From Ignavibacteriota bacterium (lineage in GTDB: Bacteria > Bacteroidota > Ignavibacteria > Palsa-1295): 64,000 bases of DNA. Location: positions 124,001 to 188,000 of the forward strand of contig PLYO01000047.1 of NCBI GenBank assembly GCA_003151825.1, given 5' to 3'. How positions within the stretch are numbered: the first letter of the stretch is position 1; each line of letters opens with the position of its first letter. The position numbers were made by a program, and so were the translations under genes. Under the pieces are notes generated by a model. The model searched no databases. It worked only from the letters and a program-made list of their open reading frames with translations, and had not been told where the DNA came from. This document shows, piece after piece, positions 14,714 through 51,661 of the stretch.

Positions 14714-14884
14714 ATTTTTTCTTAACAAAAGTGAATGAAACCACCAAAGATTAACCTGAATTGAACGTGCTTCTCTGGTACAAAGTTTCACTTTTCAAGC
14801 GCAGTTTGGTGAGCAGTTCGGCCTGCTCGCGGTCTTTCGTCCCGAATTTATAGAAAGACCTCCACTCTTGACGAGAACCACAAT

Positions 14885-14965
14885 GTCATTCCCGCGAACG
14901 CGGGAATCCAGGTCTTGAGATTACTCTGAATTCGGGGCCTGGATTCCCGCGTTCGCGGGAATGAC
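14885..14965. repeat. Palindromic repeat 'GTCATTCCCGCG' family, copy 1
   Basis: The outer arms gtcattcccgcgaacgcggg and its inverted partner cccgcgttcgcgggaatgac flank an inner arm pair aatccagg/cctggatt. The arms themselves contain the smaller palindrome cccgcgaacgcggg. The central part (cttgagattactctgaatt) is shared with the second copy at 51524-51604. It lies upstream of the T9SS gene in non-coding DNA. Confidence 0.82.
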
Positions 14966-15002
14966 ATATCACAAGTTTGCCAAATACATCGAATCGAGAT
15001 TA

Positions 15003-15066
15003 CGCATAAAGCGGGAACCGGCTCGTCAGCTGTTTCACTTCATCGCGCACGGCGGCGATCGTTTTT
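15003..15066 (-). pseudogene. Displaced second copy of the glyA 3' end
   Basis: On the minus strand this piece reads [21 protein letters not shown] and then a stop. The intact glyA gene 0.6 kb away ends [21 protein letters not shown] and continues GMKSE. A 17-base block (cgcataaagcgggaacc) is identical in both copies, and the rest differs mostly at synonymous positions. So this is a homologous but diverged 3' end of glyA with no gene body attached. It lies immediately beyond the DUF2442 gene, so the DUF4160/DUF2442 pair is bracketed by two glyA 3' ends. Confidence 0.7.
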
Positions 15067-15079
15067 GGTTACAGCAACA

Positions 15080-15403
15080 TTAAGTGCGAAGAGCAACATT
15101 TCTCGTCGTAGCAGGGGTGCGAATCTTATGTGGCTTTGCGCCATTCGTTCTTTCAACGAAGTAGGGCGTGTTTCGTATGAATCCCGCGATGGAGAGATGT
15201 TCGTCCAGATCGGGCCACTCGATGCCGATGCCCTCGCCGATCCACTGCCAACGGAGCAGCTTTTCGATAGGAGCATTTTTGAGCGCAGGAAAGAGCTTAG
15301 TCGGAATTCGCATCATACGTCCGTCATCGAGTGCTACATCGAGATAATCCCTCGAAACCGAGAGACTGCTTGCTCTAACCATTTTTTCGTCGTTTGTTTT
15401 CAT
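15080..15403 (-). CDS. DUF2442 family protein
   Basis: A 107-residue protein with the DUF2442 pattern: LDVALDDGRMMRIPTKLFPA, then NAPIEKLLRWQWIGEGIGIE followed by WPDLDEHLSI. DUF2442 proteins are small and very often follow a DUF4160 gene, in pairs that behave like toxin-antitoxin or other accessory modules; their biochemical role is not established as far as I know. The start overlaps the DUF4160 gene by 29 bases; a second ATG eight codons in (MVRASSLSV) is also possible. The C-terminal 20 residues are basic and not typical of the family, so they may be read from sequence at the insertion boundary. Confidence 0.75.
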   Translation of the reverse strand: MKTNDEKMVRASSLSVSRDYLDVALDDGRMMRIPTKLFPALKNAPIEKLLRWQWIGEGIGIEWPDLDEHLSIAGFIRNTPYFVERTNGAKPHKIRTPATTRNVALRT

Positions 15404-15626
15404 TCCACCTTTCTGTTATTAACTCACGATTCATTTCAATAATTCGCTCTATTTCTCGAAGCTCTTTTGAGCGAAATTTATGATTGTATTGCAGCCGGAG
15501 CGGCGTTTCCATCCAATATTTTGCGGATCGCTCTGCCTGCTCGACATGAATATGCATCGGTTCGTCACTCTCGTTCGAGAAAAAGAAGTATTTCCGCGAA
15601 TATATATCTCTAAAAATCTCTCCCAT
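15375..15626 (-). CDS. DUF4160 family protein
   Basis: An 83-residue protein with the DUF4160 hallmarks: YFFFSNESDEPMHIHVEQAE (aromatic strand, then the conserved E-x-x-x-P-x-H-I-H-V), AKYWMETPLRL and ELREIERIIEMNRELITERW followed by NE. DUF4160 is usually encoded with DUF2442, as here. The gene begins 14 bases after the glyA stop on the same strand, so it is probably read from the glyA transcript. Its function is unknown; the pair is commonly regarded as a candidate toxin-antitoxin-like module. Confidence 0.8.
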   Translation of the reverse strand: MGEIFRDIYSRKYFFFSNESDEPMHIHVEQAERSAKYWMETPLRLQYNHKFRSKELREIERIIEMNRELITERWNENKRRKNG

Positions 15627-15640
15627 ATCTCGCTTTGTAA

Positions 15641-16930
15641 CTATTCGCTTTTCATCCCCGCATAAAGCGGGAACCTGCTCGTCAAACTCTTCACTTCCCC
15701 GCGAACATTCGCAATCAATTTCTCATCCGTTGGATTGGAAACCACGCGGTCGATCATCCCGGCGATGGCATCCATTTCAGATTCTTTCATTCCTCGCGTG
15801 GTGATAGCGGCGGTGCCGATGCGAATGCCGGATGTGACAAGCGCGGGTTTATCGTCGTAGGGAACTGCATTTTTGTTTACAGTGATGGCGGCTTTGTCTA
15901 AGGCTTCTTCGGCGGCTTTGCCGGTAATGTTTTTGCCACGCAGATCGGCGAGCATAAGATGGTTATCCGTTCCGCCGGAGATAATGTAAAATCCTCGCTT
16001 CACAAGTTCGGAAGCCATGCGCTTGGCATTGCGAATAACCTGCGCGCCGTATTCGGTAAAGCTATCTTCCAGCGATTCACCAAACGCCACTGCTTTCGCC
16101 GCAATAACATGCATGAGCGGCCCTCCCTGTATGCCTGGCATGACGGTAGAATCAATAAGCTCGGAGACCATTTTCGTGCGTCCCGATTTTGGCGCAACCG
16201 CGCCCCAGGTGTTTTCGAAATCCTTCCCAAGCAGAATAATTCCCCCGCGCGGGCCGCGAAGCGTTTTATGCGTCGTCGAACTGACGACATGGCAGTGGGG
16301 AAGCGGGCTGGAGAGATGTCCTTTTGCGATGAGTCCGGCGGGATGCGCCATATCGCAGAAGAGAAATGCGCCGACGGAATCGGCAATCTCGCGGAATCGC
16401 GCAAAATCCATATCGCGCGAATAGGCGCTTGCGCCAACGGTAATCATTTTCGGCTTTACTTCATGCGCTTTTCGTTCCACATCTGCATAGTCGATATATC
16501 CCGTCTCTTTCGAGACTCCGTACGCATGAAATTCATAAAGCTGTCCGGAGAAATTAGCAGGGTGTCCATGCGTGAGATGTCCGCCTTGCGAAAGATTCAT
16601 TCCCAATACGCGATCGCCGGGTTTTAAAAAGGTGAAATAGACGGCCATGTTCGCCTGGGAACCGGAATGCGGCTGTACGTTCGCATATTCCGCGCCAAAG
16701 AGCTTTTTCACGCGGTCACGCGCAAGATTTTCGACGACATCGACGAACTCGCAGCCACCGTAGTAGCGCTTGCCGGGATAACCCTCCGCATATTTATTCG
16801 TGAGCACGCTTCCCTGCGCGCGCATCACGGCTTGCGAAGTGAAATTCTCGCTCGCAATTAGTTCCAGTCCGTGCTGCTGGCGCTCAAGTTCAAGTTCGAT
16901 AGTGTTGAATACTTCTGTGTCGTTCTTCAT
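15641..16930 (-). CDS. glyA: Serine hydroxymethyltransferase
   Basis: A PLP enzyme of 429 aa that interconverts serine and glycine with transfer of a one-carbon unit to tetrahydrofolate. Clear family blocks are [15 protein letters not shown] at the N-terminus, [36 protein letters not shown], the loop [14 protein letters not shown] and the PLP lysine in [13 protein letters not shown] (near residue 222). The length is normal. The last residues, GMKSE after SRFPLYA, are probably not ancestral: a second diverged glyA end downstream stops right after FPLYA. This suggests the 3' end was replaced when the adjacent DUF4160/DUF2442 pair arrived. Confidence 0.97.
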
Positions 16931-23756: not shown

Positions 23757-23907
23757 GGATGGATGGTTAAATGACAGGGAAGCGATACACGGGTGGAAGA
23801 GTGCCCAGTTTGTTTTGGGGTGTGGGGCGAAATGTCCGCCGCGGCGGATTCGCTCTTTCTTTGTGGATCGAAATATCATTTCGATCCACACACACAAAAG
23901 TCGCAAC

Positions 23908-23975
23908 GTAGCCGTGACCTTCAGGTCACGGTCGCGGAGCGTAACGACACACCGTGACCTGAAGGTCACGGCTAC
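23908..23975. repeat. Palindromic repeat 'GTAGCCGTGACC', copy 1
   Basis: The arms gtagccgtgaccttcaggtc (continuing acggtcgcgg) and ccgtgacctgaaggtcacgg (continuing ctac) are inverted complements. Each arm also contains the small palindrome gtgacctgaaggtcac. A second copy is at 43036-43101. It lies directly before the methyltransferase 3' end. Confidence 0.85.
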
Positions 23976-23978
23976 ACG

Positions 23979-39858: not shown

Positions 39859-40887
39859 CTAAACGAGGACTTCCGCAAAATTCAAAGCCAGCTTCCGTGC
39901 TTCCCGCGATTTCCAGCCACCTTTATGAAACGCATAGCTTGCTAAGAGCGGCAGCGCGACCGTCGCCTCGCAATACACCATCTGCTCATAAGACGTGGAG
40001 ACTTTCCCCCACGAAGACGCCTCGCGCAGCGTCGAGCCGGAAAGCGCGCCATCGCGCTCGTCGGCAACGGTGACTTGAATCGCGTACTTGTGCATCGGAG
40101 CTTCCTCGCCCAAAAGTTCCGCAGCTACGACGATGTCCTGCGCGAAATTTTTCGGCACTCCACCGCCGATCATGAGTAATCCTGTTTCTTTGCTTGCTAA
40201 CTTGAGTTGCGTAAGTTCTAAGAAATCTTTCGCACTGTCCAGCGAAACGTGCTCATCCGGATGAGCGGTCTGATGCATCACCAGCCCAAAACCCGCGCTG
40301 CAATCGCTGAAAGCCGGAACGAAGATCGGAACATCGTTCCGAAACGCGGTGAGCACAATGGAATTCGCACCCGCATGGCGCTCATCCAAAAATTTTCCCA
40401 TCTCGAAAATAAATTCACGCGAAGAATACGGTCGCCGTTCGAGCGAATCCGCAATTTCGCCAATGGTATGATCGCAGACGCGGAGTTCATCTTCATCGAT
40501 CAGCGTATCGTAAATGCGGTCGATGGCCAGATCGCGCAGCGTATTATCATCGAGCATCGCCGAGCCTTGATAATGCCGGAAGCCCAGCGCCTCGAAAAAA
40601 TCCTGATCGACGATATTTGCACCCGTCGATACGATAGCATCCACCATCCGGTTTTCAAGAAGATCGATGATGACCTGCTTCAGCCCCGCGCTGATGAGCG
40701 AGCCGGCGAGGCACAGAATGATCGCGCAGTCTTCGTCTTCGATCATTCTATTATAGATTTCTGCCGCGCGGTTCAGATTTCGCGCCTGAAACGCCATTTT
40801 GCCCATAGCCTCGACCATCGGCACGGCATTCATCCGCTTAATGTCTATATGCTCGACTGTTTTGGTAAATAATTCTTGCTTTTTCAT
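39859..40887 (-). CDS. Deoxyhypusine synthase-like protein
   Basis: A 342-residue member of the deoxyhypusine synthase (DHS) family. DHS transfers the aminobutyl group of spermidine to a lysine of eIF5A in archaea and eukaryotes; bacterial members are believed to act in polyamine synthesis (homospermidine or related). The recognisable elements are LCLAGSLISAGLKQVIIDLL, AIVSTGANIVDQDF, FVPAFSDCSAGFGLVMH, LLMIGGGVPKNFAQDIVV followed by AAELLG, YAIQVTVADERDGALSGSTL and SSWGKVSTSYEQMVYCEATV, the last with the Lys that forms the covalent intermediate. ATG 40887 gives the typical MKKQELFTKTVEHIDI start. No eIF5A-like partner is seen. Confidence 0.86.
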   Translation of the reverse strand: MKKQELFTKTVEHIDIKRMNAVPMVEAMGKMAFQARNLNRAAEIYNRMIEDEDCAIILCLAGSLISAGLKQVIIDLLENRMVDAIVSTGANIVDQDFFEALGFRHYQGSAMLDDNTLRDLAIDRIYDTLIDEDELRVCDHTIGEIADSLERRPYSSREFIFEMGKFLDERHAGANSIVLTAFRNDVPIFVPAFSDCSAGFGLVMHQTAHPDEHVSLDSAKDFLELTQLKLASKETGLLMIGGGVPKNFAQDIVVAAELLGEEAPMHKYAIQVTVADERDGALSGSTLREASSWGKVSTSYEQMVYCEATVALPLLASYAFHKGGWKSREARKLALNFAEVLV

Positions 40888-40914
40888 CGTGATGTTTGGA
40901 TTGAGGGACTGCAA

Positions 40915-41457
40915 AACGGTAAAATGAGGCGGGGGGTTCGAAAGAAATTTTACGGATGTTCATTCGTTAGTAGAAAACGGTGCTCATTTTCTTAAAGAAA
41001 TAGAGCCTGCCCTGAGCTTGCCGAATGGGTGCCGTTTTTTTTCTTACGAGTTCCCGACCAACTCTCGTTTCCGAGCCAATTTCGTCCGCGGCGGCGGATT
41101 GCCACTAAAGCGGCTAATGACCTGCTACATAGTACACTACAACAGGCCACAATACATTTTCAAAGAACTCCGGTGATCGATGTCCCCCAAGCTAAGGGTA
41201 TACCCGCCCAGGACTTTTCGATCGCCCCCAGTGCGCCATTTGATTTCATTGTGCAGGGATCATACATGCCTATACTGGCAGCGGTCTGTTTACACTCTCA
41301 ACGCTCGCAATCAACCATTACGCATGAATATCAAAAATGTTTCATTTTCTATAAGAAAATATCATATTAAATTTTATTCTGAAATGCATTTCCTTATGAA
41401 AAAACGCAGCCACCTCTTTCATAATTCATACTTCATAATTCATACTTGCCCAAAGGC
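40915..41457. other. Non-coding, AT-richer gap without a supported gene
   Basis: About 540 bases with no open frame that has family similarity. One 113-codon plus-strand frame (41029-41370) has no recognisable motif and low-complexity composition. The tandem cataattcatactt / cataattcatactt at 41421-41449 is the only local repeat. I see no promoter box with confidence, and composition shifts toward A/T near 41300-41420, just before the toxin-antitoxin island. Confidence 0.5.
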
Positions 41458-41524
41458 GCTCGCTTGGAATGAAGCTCTCGGTGGAAGCGGTTGAGGTGCA
41501 GGCTTCGAGGAACGCTCGTGTTTG
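41458..41524 (+). repeat. Island repeat R1 (imperfect direct repeat, coding-like)
   Basis: This begins gctcgcttggaatgaag and continues ctctcggtggaagcggttga, then ggtgcaggcttcgaggaacg and ctcgtgtttga. In frame it reads SLGMKLSVEAVEVQASRNAR then V and a stop. Copies R2 (42327-42376) and R3 (43106-43170) share the core tcggtggaagcggt and the reading frame. The repeat precedes the HicB-like/MazF cassette. Confidence 0.68.
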
Positions 41525-41565
41525 ACGGCTGGAACATTCCCTGAACCACGCCGTGTTGAATTAAT

Positions 41566-41734
41566 ATGATGCAACATAACTTCACACTCGAATACTGGGA
41601 AGAAGATGACTGGCTCGTGGGACAACTTCTTGAAATACCGAGTGTATTTTCTCAGGCCAAGACCCTCCCGGAACTCGGGGGCGAACATTCAGGAAGTATA
41701 TGAGTTGCTTTTCGAAGGTAGAATAAATAAATGA
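41566..41734 (+). pseudogene. HicB-like antitoxin with a one-base frameshift
   Basis: From ATG 41569 the frame reads MQHNFTLEYWEEDDWLVGQL, LEIPSVFSQAKTLPELG, a HicB-like antitoxin N-terminus (short beta strand, 'D-G-x-x-V-A-x-x-P-x-x-x-S-Q-G-x-T-x-E-E-A' pattern), then goes off in GEHSGSI. Dropping one G from the run of five at 41677-41681 restores the family ending ANIQEVYELLFEGRINK to the stop at 41732-41734, where TGA overlaps the next ATG (ATGA). The frame is therefore broken by a +1 indel in a homopolymer. Either a pseudogene or a sequencing/assembly error. Confidence 0.65.
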
Positions 41735-41952
41735 ACAAAGTAAGATCTAAACGCCCTGCCACGACGCGAATCGGCAGAAAAGCTCCCGGCAAAACGGCGC
41801 GACCGCAAGAGGAAATTTCGGATCGCGAACTTACCAGGCTTGCAACGTCTTCCCGCGCTCACGAATGGCTACGAGACCCCGCCGAAGACATTTACACCCT
41901 CAGCGACGGCACGCCAGCCTCATGGCCGAAACGTACAAACGGGCGAGCGTAG
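41731..41952 (+). CDS. Small basic protein upstream of MazF, probable antitoxin
   Basis: A 73-residue protein with a very basic N-terminus (MNKVRSKRPATTRIGRKAPG) and an acidic C-terminal half (SSRAHEWLRDPAEDIYTLSD, GTPASWPKR). I do not recognise the family. The start overlaps the stop of the HicB-like gene by 4 bases, and the end overlaps mazF by 31 bases. The position immediately upstream of the toxin and the WLRDPAEDIYTL... helix argue for an antitoxin. Confidence 0.55.
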   Translation: MNKVRSKRPATTRIGRKAPGKTARPQEEISDRELTRLATSSRAHEWLRDPAEDIYTLSDGTPASWPKRTNGRA

Positions 41953-42287
41953 CACTCGTTCGGTTCCCTTATACGGACTTGAGCGATTCGAAAGTCCGCC
42001 CGGCTGTTATCGTTACCGCCGATACGTATCTCGCGCGCGCGGAGGATGTACTGTGTGCCTTTATTTCTTCCGTGCTACCCGACCCGCTCCTGCCGACCGA
42101 TATTATTATTAGCTCAACCCATCCCGATTTTTCGCGAACGGGTTTGAAGCGAAGCTCCGTCTTCCGCACACACAAGCTCGTGCTACTCGACCGGGAACTT
42201 GTCTATTCGAAATTAGGAGACCTTGCGCCAACCCTGGTCAAGCAAATGAACACCGCGTTAGCTGATGCCTTGGGATTGGCAGGGTAG
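41922..42287 (+). CDS. MazF/PemK-family endoribonuclease toxin
   Basis: A 121-residue PemK/MazF-type toxin from ATG 41922 (the open frame is 19 codons longer, but MAETYKRASVALVRFPYTDL is the natural start). Typical strands are VALVRFPYTDLSDSKVRPAV, CAFISSVLPDPLLPTDIIIS and RSSVFRTHKLVLLDRELVYS. KVRPAVIV contains the conserved arginine/proline pair. MazF toxins cleave mRNA at short sequences. Downstream, repeat R2 begins 39 bases after the stop. Confidence 0.88.
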   Translation: MAETYKRASVALVRFPYTDLSDSKVRPAVIVTADTYLARAEDVLCAFISSVLPDPLLPTDIIISSTHPDFSRTGLKRSSVFRTHKLVLLDRELVYSKLGDLAPTLVKQMNTALADALGLAG

Positions 42288-42326
42288 GGCAACTGAGGCT
42301 TGCCCAGATGGGGGCAGCCGTCCTGC

Positions 42327-42376
42327 GCTCGCTGGGATTGAAACTCTCGGTGGAAGCCGTTGGGGTTCGAACTTAA
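42327..42376 (+). repeat. Island repeat R2 (imperfect direct repeat)
   Basis: This begins gctcgctgggattgaaactc and continues tcggtggaagccgttggggt and tcgaacttaa. In the shared frame it reads SLGLKLSVEAVGVRT and a stop; further in-frame codons reach back to about 42295 (RLAQMGAAVLRSLGLKLSV). Its end overlaps the stop codon of the convergent PIN gene. Confidence 0.62.
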
Positions 42377-42762
42377 ATCGTTTCGACGTGCGGGTAAGCA
42401 AGAATTCTTCCATCCACCGTTAAGAGCGTTGCCGCGTGAACTCGCGCGGTTGCAACGATAATGCAGTCGGCAGGATCGCGGTGAAATTCGCCGGGCAAAT
42501 GATTCGCTTCAATCGCTATTTGGGGAGTAAGCGGCAACAGACGAATTCCGCTCGCTCCAAGCGCTCCGGCAAACCATTCCGCCATGGGACGGTGAAGTGT
42601 TAAACGACCCTGAGACACAAGCTTTGTGATTTCCCAGCACGAAATCGCGCTGACGCAAATCTCCGAGGCGTCCGTTTGTTCTAATAATTTGCGATGGACC
42701 CGGCTCAGGCGAGCATCGTTGTGAACAGACCAAACCCACACATGGGTATCAAGCTGAAACAT
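42373..42762 (-). CDS. PIN-domain toxin (VapC family)
   Basis: A 129-residue VapC. The N-terminal Asp (MFQLDTHVWVWSVHNDARLS) and the central Glu (ISCWEITKLVSQGRL) match the active site. The third and fourth acids are in FHRDPADCIIVATARVH and LLTVDGRILAYP. Pattern and length match the VapC subgroup that has a D-T-H-V-W start. Its antitoxin gene precedes it with a 14-base overlap. It lies tail-to-tail with R2. Confidence 0.9.
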   Translation of the reverse strand: MFQLDTHVWVWSVHNDARLSRVHRKLLEQTDASEICVSAISCWEITKLVSQGRLTLHRPMAEWFAGALGASGIRLLPLTPQIAIEANHLPGEFHRDPADCIIVATARVHAATLLTVDGRILAYPHVETI

Positions 42763-42979
42763 TGTTCATTACTTCCCAATCTTCCGGCGGAACGGCTGGC
42801 TCGAACGGATCCATGTACTCCACGGGAACACCCGCTAAAGGAGTACGGAATATCTGGCCACGCGCGGTGATCTTCGACTCCACCGTCACCTCGACCTCAT
42901 CGCCGGCAGAAAACGGCAAGCCCGTGATTACGAGCGCGCCATTTTGCGAAATCTTCGAGGTCGTGTGATAGGCTTGCAT
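42749..42979 (-). CDS. Putative antitoxin of the VapC pair
   Basis: A 76-residue protein. The N-terminal half (ISQNGALVITGLPFSAGDEV, EVTVE) looks like a swapped-hairpin AbrB-type DNA-binding domain. The C-terminal half (VPVEYMDPFEPAVPPEDWEV) is acidic and proline-rich, as in toxin-binding tails. It overlaps the toxin start by 14 bases. Its start is ATG 42979. Confidence 0.68.
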   Translation of the reverse strand: MQAYHTTSKISQNGALVITGLPFSAGDEVEVTVESKITARGQIFRTPLAGVPVEYMDPFEPAVPPEDWEVMNNVSA

Positions 42980-43035
42980 GATAGTAGTCTAACGAGATAA
43001 CAACGTGGCTGGTTTCGCTCGCTTGACATGAATTC

Positions 43036-43101
43036 GTAGCCGTGACCTTCAGGTCACGGTGTATTTCCGCTCCGCGACCGTGACCTGAAGGTCACGGCTA
43101 C
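43036..43101. repeat. Palindromic repeat 'GTAGCCGTGACC', copy 2
   Basis: The arms gtagccgtgaccttcaggtc (then acgg) and ccgtgacctgaaggtcacgg (then ctac) enclose a short centre that differs from that of copy 1 (23908-23975). It lies between the VapBC pair and repeat R3. Confidence 0.85.
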
Positions 43102-43105
43102 AAAG

Positions 43106-43170
43106 GCTGGGGTTTGAGATGCTCGGTGGAAGCGGTCGAGGTGCGGGCTTCGAGGAATGCTCGTGTTTAG
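43106..43170 (+). repeat. Island repeat R3 (imperfect direct repeat)
   Basis: This begins gctggggtttgagatgctcg and continues gtggaagcggtcgaggtgcg, then ggcttcgaggaatgctcgtg and tttag. The frame is GLRCSVEAVEVRASRNARV and a stop. It is closest to R1 in its right half. It marks the end of the repeated part of the island. Confidence 0.66.
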
Positions 43171-43223
43171 GCGAATGTCTCGAAAAAACGGGTTCTGTCT
43201 AATTTCTCGGAGGCGGTTTTATT

Positions 43224-43769
43224 TTATAGTTTTTGTTGTTGAAACTTACTGCTCTCATTTTGCTTGGCTTTTCGCGCTGCGTTTTCCATTATTGTCTCGG
43301 TCATTACTTGGTGTAACTCCGGTCGAATTTTGTTCTCCAGGTCATCTTGAACTCGCCGCGCAGCATCATGAAGCTCTTTGGGGTTTTCAGTCCCTTCAAA
43401 ATGAGCGACCACTTTGTAAATCTCACTGATTTCGTCTTTCTTCATTATTGTAGGACGGCTCAAAAGTTCTCTAACCTTTTGTTTGATCGGGATTGCTTCC
43501 GTCATATCTATATCTATGAGGGGCATATCCGTTGGCTGAGATATAAGAAAATAATAATTTACGAGATCCTTTAGAGCAAGATATATCTCATATCGCTGTT
43601 CGGCGAGAGCCTGATCCTGTCTCTCTTTTCGAGCCTCACGAGCCTGTTCTTGCATGAGGCTTATAGTTCTTCTTCCCACCCGAAGAGTAACGATCACTGC
43701 AACGATTGAAACGATGAGCGAGGGATTTTGAAGTGTCCAATTGACCGTCGCGTTAATTACTTCGCACAT
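43224..43769 (-). CDS. Membrane-anchored protein of unknown function
   Basis: An N-terminal membrane segment (LIVSIVAVIVTLRVG) is followed by a charged coiled-coil-like helix (LMQEQAREARKERQDQALAE) and a mostly helical cytoplasmic domain with 'VRELLSRPTIMKKDEISEIYKVVAHF'-type segments. I do not recognise the family. ATG 43769 (181 aa) is preferred over 43808, which would add 13 non-membrane residues. It is divergent from the neighbouring T9SS gene and lies just beyond repeat R3, so it may be part of the accessory island. Confidence 0.55.
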   Translation of the reverse strand: MCEVINATVNWTLQNPSLIVSIVAVIVTLRVGRRTISLMQEQAREARKERQDQALAEQRYEIYLALKDLVNYYFLISQPTDMPLIDIDMTEAIPIKQKVRELLSRPTIMKKDEISEIYKVVAHFEGTENPKELHDAARRVQDDLENKIRPELHQVMTETIMENAARKAKQNESSKFQQQKL

Positions 43770-43824
43770 ACCAAAGGAACGCCTGAGATTAGTGGCTCGT
43801 TCGCACAAAATTCTCTTTTAAGAC

Positions 43825-45132
43825 ATGAAAAATAAATTCCTCGTTATAGCTTCGGTTCTTACACTCTCAGTCTCCACCATCCCGAACGCGCATGCACAGT
43901 GGGTAAAGCTGAATGGGTCTGATCAAGGTGGGAATGGATATATTAACGCTTTGGCCGCGATCGACTCGACTCTTTTTTCGGGCGACGCCGCTTACGTTTT
44001 CGGCGGCGGCAGCGTTTGGCGCTCGACAAATAGCGACACGACCTGGACTTTGGTCGATTCTGGTCTGATAGCGAATGAGAATAATTCAGTCAATGCCTTA
44101 CAAGTTCTTGGCACAAACCTTTTCGCAGCCACCGATTCAGGCGTTTTCCGTTCTACAAACAACGGTACAACATGGATCAATGTCATGGACACTGCGGTCA
44201 GTTCATTTGCAGTGGTGGGAACACTTCTTTTTGCGGGAACTGAACATAGTGGCATTTTTCTATCGACGGACAATGGAACAAACTGGACAGCTGTGAATAT
44301 AGGCTTGCGTTATGATTCAACTGCTGAAGAGTATTGGAATGTCGATGCTTTTGCGGTGAGCGGCACATACCTCTTTGCAGAAGAAAATGGCTTTTTTCTT
44401 TCGACCAACAACGGCACAAGCTGGAGCAATGTCAGCGACTCTTTCCCAGGCAATTCTACACCCAACAACCTTGCTGTGATCGGTACGAACATTCTTGCAG
44501 GAACCAATTATGGCGTTGTTATTTCAACCAACAATGGGACAAGCTGGAAAGCGGCTAATTCCAGCTACGCGAAGTTATCTTCGGTCAATGTCCATGCCTT
44601 TGCTGTGGTCGGCACGAATATTTTCGCGGGGGGATTTCTCTTAGACACTGGCGGTGTAATATTTCTCTCCACCGATAGCGGTGCAAGCTGGACTTCGGAG
44701 AGTTTAGGCTTGCCGTACGTTGAAATCCGTGCCTTTGCTGTAGTCGGCGAGAATCTGTTCGCAGGGGCATATGGCACTTCCGGGTTTCCATTCGGGGAGG
44801 TTCCAGGCGGCGTTTTTAGCAGACCGCTATCTCAGATGATTGCTTCAAGTTCGGTAGCTGATCCGAAAGCGACTTCACCCGAAATTCAAAGCTACCCCAA
44901 TCCCCTCTCTCAATCCACCACCATTCGCTTTACCTCGGCGGAAAGCGGAGCGGCGCGCGTTACGGTTGTGAACCTTCTTGGGGAGGAAGTTGCGCGGGTG
45001 TTCGAGGGCACGCTCAGTGCCGGCGAGCATTCCTTCGAATGGGATGCCAGCGGCGCGGCGCCGGGGATGTATGAGTGCGTTGTGGAGATGAACGGAAGCG
45101 TTCAGCAGGTGCCGGTGATGGTGCAGCCGTAG
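43825..45132 (+). CDS. Secreted BNR/YCF48-like propeller with T9SS sorting domain
   Basis: A 435-residue exported protein: signal peptide FLVIASVLTLSVSTIPNAHA, cleavage before QWVKLN. About seven blades carry S-T-N/D-x-G-T-x-W units (WRSTNSDTTWTLVDSG, FRSTNNGTTWINV, FLSTDNGTNWTAVNIG, FLSTNNGTSWSNVSD, VISTNNGTSWKAAN, FLSTDSGASWTSESL). The C-terminal sorting domain has IQSYPNPLSQSTTIRF, VNLLGEEVARVFEG, HSFEWDASGAAPGMYECVV. Its last 45 residues are almost the same as an orphan CTD fragment at 45637-45825. A close paralogue lies at 22545-23756. Confidence 0.82.
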   Translation: MKNKFLVIASVLTLSVSTIPNAHAQWVKLNGSDQGGNGYINALAAIDSTLFSGDAAYVFGGGSVWRSTNSDTTWTLVDSGLIANENNSVNALQVLGTNLFAATDSGVFRSTNNGTTWINVMDTAVSSFAVVGTLLFAGTEHSGIFLSTDNGTNWTAVNIGLRYDSTAEEYWNVDAFAVSGTYLFAEENGFFLSTNNGTSWSNVSDSFPGNSTPNNLAVIGTNILAGTNYGVVISTNNGTSWKAANSSYAKLSSVNVHAFAVVGTNIFAGGFLLDTGGVIFLSTDSGASWTSESLGLPYVEIRAFAVVGENLFAGAYGTSGFPFGEVPGGVFSRPLSQMIASSSVADPKATSPEIQSYPNPLSQSTTIRFTSAESGAARVTVVNLLGEEVARVFEGTLSAGEHSFEWDASGAAPGMYECVVEMNGSVQQVPVMVQP

Positions 45133-45165
45133 GAATTTTTCAGCAGCTTCGGGGTTATTACAAAT

Positions 45166-45360
45166 ATGAAAGGCATCAAATATGTTACCGACGATACGGG
45201 CGCTCGAGTTGCCGCGCAGGTCGATCTCGCTCAATGGGGCGAGGAGTGGCGCGATTTTTTGGATGGACTTGAAGCAGAAAACGAACCGAAAGAGCCCAGT
45301 GTCCCGTGGAGCGAGCTAAAGGCCGAAATGGAAGGCGCCTCTCGCCGTGTACGAGCTTAA
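45166..45360 (+). CDS. Putative antitoxin upstream of a broken relE
   Basis: A 64-residue acidic protein: MKGIKYVTDDTGARVAAQVD, LAQWGEEWRDFLDGLEAENE, PKEPSVPWSELKAEME. The V-A-x-Q-V-D-L-x-x-W pattern resembles small antitoxins that lie upstream of RelE-type toxins. It overlaps the RelE frame by 14 bases. The family is not certain. Confidence 0.6.
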   Translation: MKGIKYVTDDTGARVAAQVDLAQWGEEWRDFLDGLEAENEPKEPSVPWSELKAEMEGASRRVRA

Positions 45361-45597
45361 ATTCACACCTGCCGCCATACGAATTGGCGCAAGTTTCCGC
45401 TTCTTGTTCAGCAACAGATTGCTCCACATCTCGATGGGCTTTCATCGGACCCTCGCCCTTCTGGCATAAAGAAATTGAAGGGATTCCAAAACCTTTACCG
45501 TATTCGTACCGGTGATTATAGGGTCATCTACGAGATCGAGGATGCTTCGAAGACCATTTGGATCACAAAAATAATGGATCGAAAGGACGAATATTAA
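45347..45597 (+). pseudogene. RelE-family toxin with a frameshift
   Basis: From GTG 45347 the frame reads VYELKFTPAAIR, the RelE N-terminus. One base is missing near 45382-45384, and after the shift the frame continues NWRKFPLLVQQQIAPHLDGL, SSDPRPSGIKKLKGFQNLYR, IRTGDYRVIYEIEDASKTIW, ITKIMDRKDEY to the TAA at 45595-45597. The second half contains the family core (KKLKGFQNLYRIRTGDYRVI). Inserting one A (cga a-a-t tgg) makes it complete. Either a pseudogene or an assembly error. Confidence 0.7.
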
Positions 45598-45636
45598 GCA
45601 TGGGTTTTCTTTCCATACTAAAATCGCTCTCGCTCG

Positions 45637-45825
45637 GTGTGCGGCGTGGCGCGCGTTACGGTTGTGAACCTTCTTGGCGAAGAAGTTGCGCGGCTCTTCG
45701 AGGGTGAGCTCGCTGCCGGTGAGCATTCCTTCACCTGGGATGCCAGCGGCGCGGCGCCGGGCGTTTATGCGATGGAAGTTACTTCAAGCAACGGAACGAA
45801 TTTCGTGCGGATGGTGAAGAATTAA
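45637..45825 (+). pseudogene. Orphan T9SS sorting-domain fragment
   Basis: Reads ARVTVVNLLGEEVARLFEGE, LAAGEHSFTWDASGAAPGVY, AMEVTSSNGTNFVRMVKN: the last 60 residues of a T9SS type A sorting domain, with no signal peptide or body. It matches the end of the 43825 gene almost residue for residue in its first 45 residues; a 30-base block (ggcgcgcgttacggttgtga and accttcttgg) is identical. The antitoxin/relE pair lies between the two copies. Probably the displaced 3' end of the neighbouring gene. Confidence 0.72.
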
Positions 45826-45879
45826 TGTTATCGCCGCATGTCGGGCACTTTAGGGTAATGGAAAGGAGTTGGTAATTTT

Positions 45880-46122
45880 ATGGACAGAGCACATGAAACA
45901 CTACGCCAGGAAGTATTCGAACTCGATCCTCACGAGCAGGCATTGCTCGCCGAGGAGATCGCTGTAAATCTTTCGAAGGACGAGAACATGAAACTGTGGC
46001 TCGAAGAGGCCAAGCGGCGGTTGGAAGAACACCGGCGCGGCGAAGGAACGACCGTGAGCCGCGAGGAAATGATGGCCAAAGGAAGAAAAATGATTGAAGA
46101 AGCACAACGGGCGAGGCAATGA
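45880..46122 (+). CDS. Antitoxin, addiction-module component family
   Basis: An 80-residue helical protein: VFELDPHEQALLAEEIAVNL, MKLWLEEAKRRLEEHRRGEG, TTVSREEMMAKGRKMIEEAQ. This matches the 'addiction module component' family that accompanies ParE/RelE toxins (leucine-rich first helix and an EEA-x-x-R-L-x-E-x-x-x-G region). Its stop overlaps the ATG of the toxin by four bases (ATGA). Confidence 0.78.
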   Translation: MDRAHETLRQEVFELDPHEQALLAEEIAVNLSKDENMKLWLEEAKRRLEEHRRGEGTTVSREEMMAKGRKMIEEAQRARQ

Positions 46123-46412
46123 CAATTCGAATCCGCTCACATGCCGAGCTGGAATATTCAGAAGCACTTGCCTATTATATCGATGAGCATACTCCCCAAT
46201 CCGCCGAGCGATTTGAACGTGAAATTGATCTGGCGCTTGAGGCAATACTCCAAAACCCTCAATTATATAGTCTTATAGATTTCAATGTCCGGGCCAAAAG
46301 CCTTAAACATTTTCCCTACTCGATACTTTATTCGATAGAAGGCGAGGAAATCGTCGTCCTTGCAATCGCGCACCAAAAACGCAAGCCTGGTTATTGGCGC
46401 GACAGGCTCTAA
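46119..46412 (+). CDS. ParE/RelE-superfamily toxin
   Basis: A 97-residue toxin-fold protein: IRIRSHAELEYSEALAYYID, AERFEREIDLALEAILQNPQ, LYSLIDFNVRAKSLKHFPYS, ILYSIEGEEIVVLAIAHQKR, KPGYWRDR. The R-x-x-x-x-x-F-P-Y-x-I-x-Y pattern and the HxKRxPGYWxDR ending are typical of ParE-type proteins. The first coding frame is coupled to the antitoxin by an ATGA overlap. Convergent with zwf, whose stop is 3 bases away. Confidence 0.88.
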   Translation: MTIRIRSHAELEYSEALAYYIDEHTPQSAERFEREIDLALEAILQNPQLYSLIDFNVRAKSLKHFPYSILYSIEGEEIVVLAIAHQKRKPGYWRDRL

Positions 46413-46414
46413 TT

Positions 46415-47839
46415 TTACATCTTCTCCGCTTCCTTCGGCCCCCAGGAGCCGGCGGGATAGGGATGAACCGCCCGATGCGCGTGGAGCACCGGCGTGTAAA
46501 GCTGCCACGATGCAAGCGTTTCGTCCGCCGAAACGAAGAGTGTTTGATCGCCGCGCATCACGTCGAGCAAGAGCGTGTGATACGCCTCCGGAATCGGTCC
46601 GAACGCTTCGGAATAGGAGAAGTGCATCCATTCGGATTGCACGGCCATTTCCGGGCCCGGCTGCTTGACCTGGAAAGAGATGCGAAAGCCTTCGTTCGGC
46701 TGGATGGCGATAACGAGCACGTTTGGCTGCGTCCCTTTGCCTTCGGACGACTTGAACAGCGCGACCGGCGGACATCGGAACGTAACAACAATCTCCGACA
46801 TGCGATCTTTCAATCGCTTGCCGGTCTTGAGATAAAATGGCACGCCATGCCATCGCCAATTCTCGACTCGCATTTTTAATGCGACAAAGGTCGGCGTCGT
46901 CGAATCGCTGCGAACGCCTTCTTCCTGCCGGTATCCACGGACCCCATTTCCTCCGATTTCGCCTTCCGTGTATTGGCCGAACACGACATCCTCCGCGCGG
47001 ATCGGCGCAATCGAGCGGAGAACTTTTACTTTTTCGAAACGCAAATCATCGGATTGGAATGCGAGCGGGATTTCCATTGCGGTCAGCGTGAGAAGCTGCG
47101 TGAGATGATTTTGCACCATATCTCGCAGTGCGCCGCTTTTTTCGTAATAGTCCGCGCGCGATTCGATGCCAAGCTCTTCGGCAACGATGATCTCGACTTT
47201 CTCTATTTTCTCGCGGTTCCAGACTGACTCGAACAGCGAATTTCCGAAACGGAACGCCAGTAAATTTTGAACGGTCTCCTTGCCGAGATAATGGTCGATG
47301 CGATAGACCTGCTTTTCCTCGAAATATTTGTGGATCAGATCGTTTAATTCCCGCGCGGATTGAAGGTCGCGCCCAAAGGGCTTTTCGATGACGAGCCGCG
47401 TCCAGCCAAGCGATTTGTTTAGTTCGGATACGCCGAGCGATTTAATCGTCGGTCCAAATCCCTCCGGCGGAATGGCCAGATGAAAAATCCGGTTGCCATT
47501 CAGCTTGTGCTTTTTTTCAAGACTTGTGATTTTCGCGTGGAGCTTCGAAAATTCCTCGCGCGTCCCTTTGCCAATGCCTTGATAAAATATTCGCGTGTCG
47601 CACCATTTCGTAATGGCGTCCGCATCGCTCACGCCCGATTTTTCAATCGATTGGTTCACATCCTGCCGAAATGCGGCGTCGGATTTGCCTTTATTCCGCC
47701 CCACGCCGAGAATGAGCGTCTGCTCGGGCACTTGGCCCTCGACCGCCATCTCATAGAGCGCGGGAAGTATTTTGCGGTGCGCGAGATCGCCGGTCGCGCC
47801 AAAAATAACGATGAGGGTGGGTTCGAGTTTGGTTGACAC
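46415..47839 (-). CDS. zwf: Glucose-6-phosphate 1-dehydrogenase
   Basis: A 474-residue enzyme that oxidises glucose-6-phosphate to the lactone with NADP. The N-terminal Rossmann motif is LIVIFGATGDLAHRKILPAL, the catalytic block is VYRIDHYLGKETVQNLLAFR and further conserved parts are WTRLVIEKPFGRDLQSAREL, VPFYLKTGKRLKDR and YHTLLLDVMRGDQTLFV. The length is typical (about 480-500). It is followed 14 bases away by gnd in the same direction (gnd is upstream), so zwf and gnd form an operon; pgl is elsewhere at 38 kb. Confidence 0.97.
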   Translation of the reverse strand: MSTKLEPTLIVIFGATGDLAHRKILPALYEMAVEGQVPEQTLILGVGRNKGKSDAAFRQDVNQSIEKSGVSDADAITKWCDTRIFYQGIGKGTREEFSKLHAKITSLEKKHKLNGNRIFHLAIPPEGFGPTIKSLGVSELNKSLGWTRLVIEKPFGRDLQSARELNDLIHKYFEEKQVYRIDHYLGKETVQNLLAFRFGNSLFESVWNREKIEKVEIIVAEELGIESRADYYEKSGALRDMVQNHLTQLLTLTAMEIPLAFQSDDLRFEKVKVLRSIAPIRAEDVVFGQYTEGEIGGNGVRGYRQEEGVRSDSTTPTFVALKMRVENWRWHGVPFYLKTGKRLKDRMSEIVVTFRCPPVALFKSSEGKGTQPNVLVIAIQPNEGFRISFQVKQPGPEMAVQSEWMHFSYSEAFGPIPEAYHTLLLDVMRGDQTLFVSADETLASWQLYTPVLHAHRAVHPYPAGSWGPKEAEKM

Positions 47840-47853
47840 TTGCTATTCCTTTA

Positions 47854-48759
47854 TTATTCTTTCGTTATGGCATGACCGCCAAATTCATTGCGCAGCGCAG
47901 AGAGAAGTTTATCGCCGAACGATTCCACTTCTCGCGAGCGGATACGCTCGAGGAGCGAAAGCGTGATGATGGGCGCCGGCACATCGTTGTCAATGGCCTC
48001 GAAGACCGTCCAGCGGCCCTCGCCGGAATCGGCGACGACCGGCGCAATGCCTTCGAGATTCGGATTTTTTGCGAGCGCATCCGCCGCCAAATCGAGCAGC
48101 CACGAACGGACGACGCTCCCATACCGCCAAATTTCAGCCACTTGATGCGCATCGATAGTAAACGCTTTCTTATGTTTGATAATCGAAAATCCCTCGGCAT
48201 ACGCCTGCATGAGGCCGTATTCGATGCCGTTATGGACCATCTTCACAAAATGTCCCGCACCGCATGGCCCGACGCGACCCCATCCTTTATCTTTCGCTGG
48301 CGCGAGCGTCTCGAAAATCGGGCGAAGCGACTCGACAACATTTGTATCGCCGCCAATCATCATGCTATAACCCTCTTCGAGACCCCAAATTCCTCCGCTC
48401 GTTCCGCAATCTACGTAGGCGATGTCATTTTTCTTCAGCGATTCCGCGCGGCGCATGGAATCCTTGAAATTCGAGTTCCCGCCGTCGATAAGAATATCAC
48501 CCTTACCGAGAAGCGGTAAAAGAGATTCGATCGTCTCATCGACCGGCGCTCCCGCCGGAACCATCATCCAGAGAATCTTTGGTTTTGGAAGAGCCTGCGC
48601 CAACGAGGCGAGGGACGAAACGGACGCCCCCCCCTTCTGTTCGAAAAGCTTTCGAGCATCTTCATTTGGATCGAAGCCGGCGACCTCGTGGCCGCCTCGA
48701 ATAAGCCGCTCGGCCATATTCGCGCCCATCCGGCCTAAGCCGATCATTGCTAATTTCAT
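47854..48759 (-). CDS. gnd: 6-phosphogluconate dehydrogenase (decarboxylating), short form
   Basis: A 301-residue enzyme from ATG 48759. The N-terminal MKLAMIGLGRMGANMAERLI is the NAD(P) motif, ILIDGGNSNFKDSMRRAESL the conserved GGNS region, AYVDCGTSGGIWGLEEGYSM the GTSGG loop, and FVKMVHNGIEYGLMQAYAEG the K-x-x-x-N catalytic helix. It belongs to the shorter (about 300 aa) GndA/YqeC-type form. The upstream open frame (33 codons) has no similarity. It sits upstream of zwf and downstream of the COG4705 gene on the same strand, so all three are probably co-transcribed. Confidence 0.95.
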   Translation of the reverse strand: MKLAMIGLGRMGANMAERLIRGGHEVAGFDPNEDARKLFEQKGGASVSSLASLAQALPKPKILWMMVPAGAPVDETIESLLPLLGKGDILIDGGNSNFKDSMRRAESLKKNDIAYVDCGTSGGIWGLEEGYSMMIGGDTNVVESLRPIFETLAPAKDKGWGRVGPCGAGHFVKMVHNGIEYGLMQAYAEGFSIIKHKKAFTIDAHQVAEIWRYGSVVRSWLLDLAADALAKNPNLEGIAPVVADSGEGRWTVFEAIDNDVPAPIITLSLLERIRSREVESFGDKLLSALRNEFGGHAITKE

Positions 48760-51454: not shown

Positions 51455-51523
51455 GCTAAACCAAACGGAGGGGGTTCGTAAGGGGTTCGCAGGGGATTGA
51501 AAAGTGACCTACCCGAGAGAGAT

Positions 51524-51604
51524 GTCATTCCCGCGAAAGCGGGAATCCAGGACTTGAGATTACTCTGAATTTGAGATCTGGATTCCCGCTTTCGCGGGAA
51601 TGAC
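51524..51604. repeat. Palindromic repeat 'GTCATTCCCGCG' family, copy 2
   Basis: The outer arms gtcattcccgcgaaagcggg and cccgctttcgcgggaatgac match the copy at 14885-14965 over most of the 81 bases, including the centre cttgagattactctgaatt. Compensatory changes keep the hairpin: gaaagc/gctttc here, gaacgc/gcgttc in copy 1. It lies upstream of the plus-strand alaS and downstream of nothing (divergent intergenic). Confidence 0.85.
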
Positions 51605-51661
51605 AATGCAAAAGAGTAATTTGTTGAACATTCCCTAAACATTCGTGTTTTTCCGTGACGC

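Follow-up and report, generated by a model that had tools for sequence, protein, structure and literature searches.

In the window, the 64,000-nucleotide stretch of DNA analyzed here, a beta-propeller gene beginning at position 43825 (the 43825 gene) is followed by a toxin-antitoxin (TA) pair and then by a fragment (the orphan) that resembles the gene's own coding end. How did a second gene end come to lie behind a TA cassette, and is the arrangement peculiar to one locus? The earlier note, pointing to the same geometry at glyA, had proposed a common way of acquiring such cassettes at gene 3' ends. That general idea was strongly extended, by three ends of an HI1420-type antitoxin gene and by eight further loci in three genomes. 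The pattern is real and recurrent, but the flagged locus itself exemplifies it only weakly, and the special pairing of the orphan with the 43825 gene did not appear in a tree. The source lineage of the DNA is Bacteroidota/Kapabacteria-like.

DNA self-comparison at the flagged locus revealed an ungapped direct repeat of 129 nt and 86% identity (44945-45073 and 45641-45769), within which the claimed block of 30 identical bases was found at 44952-44981 and 45648-45677. Both copies belong to type IX secretion system (T9SS) type A sorting domains, with TIGR04183 scores of 32.0 bits for the 43825 gene and 24.1 bits for the orphan against a cut-off of 23. The likeness stops about 20 residues ahead of the stop codons. 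The material between the repeats is a predicted ParE/RelE-type TA remnant. Its 70-amino-acid unbroken downstream part (45385-45594) matches ParE_toxin (PF05016, 3.4e-8), which upholds the frameshifted relE described earlier as a broken toxin of the ParE/RelE superfamily; the 64-amino-acid open reading frame described as its antitoxin had no match in Pfam or NCBIfam. A second TA pair (Unstab_antitox and ParE), apparently intact, follows the orphan at 45880-46412. No second DNA copy of the flagged cassette was found in the genome, an Rfam search of 40000-48000 gave no match, and a promoter and terminator scan of 43800-46500 gave no excess over chance.

The surroundings of the 43825 gene are themselves an insertion. 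In the window, zwf (46415-47839, minus strand) and the next gene (39859-40914, minus strand) are 5.5 kb apart, while in two genomes of the same genus (G005 and G006) gnd, zwf, and the homologue of the latter gene are adjacent, with a zwf/39859 gap of approximately 0.1 to 0.3 kb. In a blastn comparison with G005, similarity ended at 40943 and restarted at 46419. Because this block is missing between the two genes in G005 and G006, the 43825 gene arrived as part of the inserted block rather than being a resident host gene. Its paralogous beta-propeller/T9SS family is large, with 83 family matches in its own genome and matches in 39 of 41 genomes, the best at about 50% identity; a search for its orthologue in 40 relatives yielded paralogues only. 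The region is a nest of TA modules accreted between two housekeeping genes (Table 1). Three diverged tails, all finishing in a stop codon, are 3' ends of the HI1420 antitoxin gene, full versions of which with the same C terminus occur in G002 and G001 (PF21716, 2.3e-18), and they alternate with a PemK-type and a PIN toxin in the order end, TA, end, TA, end. No tail originating from zwf was found within the block, and no tyrosine or serine recombinase was found among the open reading frames read in the block or in sampled cassettes. Directly behind the first tail lies a short HicB-like frame, apparently frameshifted when judged by eye (41566-41733), a 45-amino-acid part of which had no Pfam match. 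The repeats at 41456, 42325, and 43122 were also considered as a dispersed or attC-like element, which was ruled out: they are confined to the block and are coding ends of the HI1420 antitoxin.

Table 1. Coordinates of features in the window (plain numbers) and of host genes with displaced 3' ends in sampled genome stretches (with contig label)
Feature	Coordinates	Strand	Basis or remark
Displaced glyA 3' end, ends in stop	15003..15065	-	75% over 63 nt to 15659-15721
DUF2442 protein (TA-like cassette)	15080..15403	-	PF10387, 2.6e-14
DUF4160 protein (TA-like cassette)	15375..15626	-	PF13711, 1.6e-16
glyA with functional 3' end	15641..16930	-	orthologues in 14 relatives
TA-rich block between zwf and 39859-40914 gene	40944..46418		missing from G005, G006
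Tail 1, dnstrm_HI1420 antitoxin 3' end, ends at stop	41448..41525	+	direct repeats; C terminus as in full genes
PemK/MazF-type toxin (true start probably 41925)	41865..42287	+	PF02452, 1.2e-11
Tail 2, HI1420 antitoxin 3' end	42299..42376	+	direct repeats; C terminus as in full genes
PIN-domain (VapC-type) toxin	42373..42762	-	PF01850, 1e-16
Probable VapB-type partner of PIN toxin	42749..42979	-	by position; ORF overlaps toxin start
Tail 3, HI1420 antitoxin 3' end	43102..43170	+	direct repeats; C terminus as in full genes
Beta-propeller (BNR/sortilin-like) protein with T9SS type A sorting domain	43825..45132	+	PF15902, PF18962, TIGR04183
Repeat copy A	44945..45073	+	within sorting-domain 3' end of 43825 gene
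RelB-like antitoxin ORF, 64 aa	45166..45360	+	assigned by position and look only
ParE/RelE-superfamily toxin gene, frame broken near 45384	45347..45597	+	PF05016
Displaced sorting-domain 3' end (orphan)	45641..45825	+	repeat copy B plus different last 20 residues
Unstab_antitox antitoxin	45880..46122	+	PF09720, 5.7e-8
ParE-family toxin	46119..46412	+	PF05016, 7.5e-10
DUF455 gene, then MNT and HepT-like	C38:117485-118927		displaced 3' end downstream
208-aa gene, then PIN	C38:19632-20258		displaced 3' end downstream
rpoN, then HicA	C38:38991-40601		displaced 3' end downstream
ABC transporter, then FkbM-like ORF (no Pfam match)	C38:50924-52774		displaced 3' end downstream
Outer-membrane gene, then PIN_3	C43:125980-127512		displaced 3' end downstream
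AAA ATPase, then BrnT, second 3' end, PIN, third 3' end	C50:64846-66423 (locus G000:C50:63251-66423)		BrnT = PF04365
GH1-like gene, then ORF6N	G004 C15:71297-72442		displaced 3' end downstream
mutS, then Unstab_antitox	G001 C1:126820-129711		displaced 3' end downstream

At glyA, the geometry described earlier was confirmed, with a 63-nt repeat around the DUF4160/DUF2442 pair. In most relatives read, glyA is closely trailed by a tatC-like start with no cassette, and in G001, G005, and G006 a LigT-like gene likewise comes immediately after the AAA ATPase gene, as read from the sequences. In these insert-free relatives, the 3' ends of both genes are present once.

Recurrence was assessed by a scan for displaced 3' ends across 704 kb of the genome itself (G000) and 371 kb each of G004 and G001, approximately 1.45 Mb of sampled stretches from congeneric genomes, with simple longest open reading frames as gene calls. 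Besides the 43825 gene, nine host genes (glyA and eight more) had a same-strand displaced 3' end downstream that lay outside any gene. The cargo was mostly TA, the one exception being the FkbM-like open reading frame at the ABC transporter. Three mirror searches served as controls, for 3' ends lying upstream and for 5' ends lying downstream or upstream. They picked up tandem paralogues or intergenic repeats in nearly every case, plus about one displaced 5' end that may be real (G001 C1:101624-103483, without TA), and a control with shuffled neighbors gave two weak matches. Flanking direct repeats were on the order of 100 bp, at 129 nt for the T9SS locus, 63 nt for glyA, and 143 and 93 nt for the AAA ATPase gene. 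At the mutS locus (G001:C1:125966-129711), mutS is accompanied by a HicB-like fragment, an Unstab_antitox/ParE-like pair whose ParE is apparently interrupted by a stop, and then the second mutS 3' end.

Divergence between functional and displaced ends ranged from approximately 3% (AAA ATPase, third 3' end, 113/117 identical) to 25% (glyA, 43/57 identical), the latter being approximately the distance of glyA ends from other species of the genus. Neutral decay after a duplication should leave roughly one in four changes synonymous. Outside the T9SS locus, 52 changed codons in displaced ends were synonymous and 15 were nonsynonymous. For example, glyA had 6 synonymous and 3 nonsynonymous changes, all 6 changed codons were synonymous at the DUF455 gene, and all 7 were synonymous between the AAA ATPase functional end and its third 3' end (42-codon part compared). 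Protein-based discovery favors synonymous pairs, and the same loci were also recovered by a DNA-only scan. In a duplicate that lost its function at insertion, the ratio would be reversed; the divergence is therefore older than the insertion, and the two ends derive from homologous functional genes. In four pairs, 37 to 45 of the 45 nt preceding the stop codon were identical (82 to 100%), compared with 9 to 13 of the 45 nt following it (20 to 29%), so that homology ended at the stop in the cleanly measured cases; the boundary was not clean for glyA, the ABC transporter, the 208-amino-acid gene, and the fused AAA ATPase end versus its third 3' end. For glyA and the AAA ATPase gene, neither copy was consistently nearer to relatives when native and incoming ends were compared.

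The reading preferred here, at a probability of about 55%, is that foreign pieces made up of a homologous gene 3' end and a TA module entered by a homologous crossover combined with an illegitimate joint. A small donor piece would contain a homologous gene's 3' end, its stop codon immediately followed by the TA module. A homologous crossover would then occur inside the 3' end of the recipient gene, and the other end of the donor would be joined illegitimately; alternatively, the donor piece may first have circularized and then inserted through a single crossover. The recipient gene would stay whole, keeping or gaining a complete 3' end with the TA module right behind its stop, and the second 3' end would be left as a useless tail of approximately 36 to 185 nt. 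Addiction to the TA module may then help the insert persist. We infer the crossover and joining steps, as well as the role of addiction; the donor molecules themselves were not seen. In Escherichia coli, small molecules with a lacZ end integrate mostly by single crossover, duplicating 109 to 950 bp of that end (PMC3240628). This single-crossover, or homology-facilitated illegitimate, integration produces the same order of host gene, insert, and displaced partial gene-end copy, but it involved laboratory plasmids and selection, whereas the loci described here arose naturally and repeatedly, carry TA cargo, and have diverged ends.

For the flagged locus alone, a different origin of the orphan has to be weighed. 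It could be the decayed remnant of a different, unrelated T9SS gene's end, once present in the fast-changing block, with its likeness to the 43825 gene being a family resemblance, an explanation that is a real possibility at somewhat less than even odds. The earlier note had accepted that equally similar DNA in unrelated sorting domains would point this way, and the data came close: orphan DNA matched approximately 20 other sorting domains, and those on C3, C13, C24, and C9 reached 82 to 83% over 107 to 136 nt, compared with 86% for the neighbor. A tree grouped the orphan, the 43825 gene, C3, and C13 with support of 95/92 for the four and without pairing the orphan with the 43825 gene, the last 20 residues of the orphan are unlike those of the other three, and free-standing sorting-domain stubs occur elsewhere in the genome. 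The neighbor nevertheless remained the best match of the orphan (74.4 bits, compared with at most 66.3 elsewhere) when 103 sorting-domain places of the genome, as well as 14 relatives, were compared, and the same geometry recurs at many unrelated genes. Judged from sequence, the likeness of the orphan and the 43825 gene is not chance. Along its whole length, the tail of this pair has 6 synonymous and 19 nonsynonymous changed codons (5 and 7 in the conserved part), which fits a paralogue rather than an allele. The orphan is thus a displaced end of the same sorting-domain subfamily as the 43825 gene, any member of which may have been the homologous partner. Most likely it records one acquisition event, in which a further sorting-domain 3' end was left as a scar behind a TA cassette.

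Across all loci, the closest known process is insertion with long target duplication, in which the TA unit would insert and copy approximately 40 to 190 bp of its target, a mechanism put forward for restriction-modification systems of Helicobacter. The anatomy and size range agree: in PMC3874152, which cites Nobusato et al. (2000), restriction-modification units are addictive, lack a recombinase of their own, and insert with variable duplications of approximately 100 bp taken from the target. Relative to that description, the cargo here is mostly TA, the repeats lie at gene 3' ends with hardly any at 5' ends, and the copies differ mainly at synonymous sites. The last point is unexpected for a duplicate that has been functionless since insertion, as a second copy of the recipient's own target with neutral later differences would be. 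Because the differences are mainly synonymous, the copies were separate alleles before insertion, unlike those of a restriction-modification target duplication. The pattern is therefore related to, yet distinguishable from, insertion with long target duplication, which is unlikely as the explanation of these loci.

Genomic islands can replace a gene 3' end at integration, as at tRNA genes and by e14 in icd. A site-specific recombinase acting in trans that used gene 3' ends as attachment sites, with the cassette bringing a replacement end, would account for the preference for 3' ends, the preserved functional end, and the diverged replacement end, but this is quite improbable given that no recombinase gene was noticed in any cassette examined, the cassettes lie at unrelated host genes, their ends showed no common sequence by eye, and tail lengths vary from approximately 36 to 185 nt. 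Such islands likewise keep a functional 3' end and displace a second one downstream; here, in contrast, no integrase was seen, inserts are approximately 0.5 to 1 kb, and many unrelated genes are targets. The TA cassettes of super-integrons (PMC2654758) also form arrays of small TA-rich units separated by repeats, whereas here the repeats vary between loci and consist of the coding ends of specific host genes.

In the literature searched, no description of a displaced-3'-end footprint for TA modules was found. Crossover and illegitimate joining at gene ends, if correct, bear on the open question of how TA modules in chromosomes spread when no mobile element carries them, and suggest TA entry without a dedicated integrase. 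Diverged 3'-end tails form a readable footprint that marks the junction, suggests a homologous gene end on the incoming DNA, and gauges the distance of the donor. The question is thereby testable, since automated counts of this footprint can be obtained for any genome. A bolder proposal is doubtful: that in this lineage TA modules move as a recognizable unit with a homologous gene 3' end, landing on the 3' ends of core genes in a repeated, integrase-free, and possibly dedicated process, and that such units can pile up behind a single gene (host end, BrnT, end, PIN, end).

Two kinds of minor features were also recorded. The free-standing sorting-domain stubs of the genome are at C9:44569-44712, C11:50000-50164, C21:30778-30909, and C27:25912-26040; with gene names assigned by eye, those on C11, C21, and C27 are near TA or helix-turn-helix (HTH) genes, and the C9 stub adjoins a restriction-like gene. 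The window also contains two families of near-perfect REP-like hairpin repeats, one at 14881-14970 and 51519-51608 (ATGTCATTCCCGCG...) and the other at 23907-23976 and 43033-43104 (GTAGCCGTGACCTTCAGGTCACGG...), with one hairpin beside the displaced glyA end and one beside an HI1420 tail.
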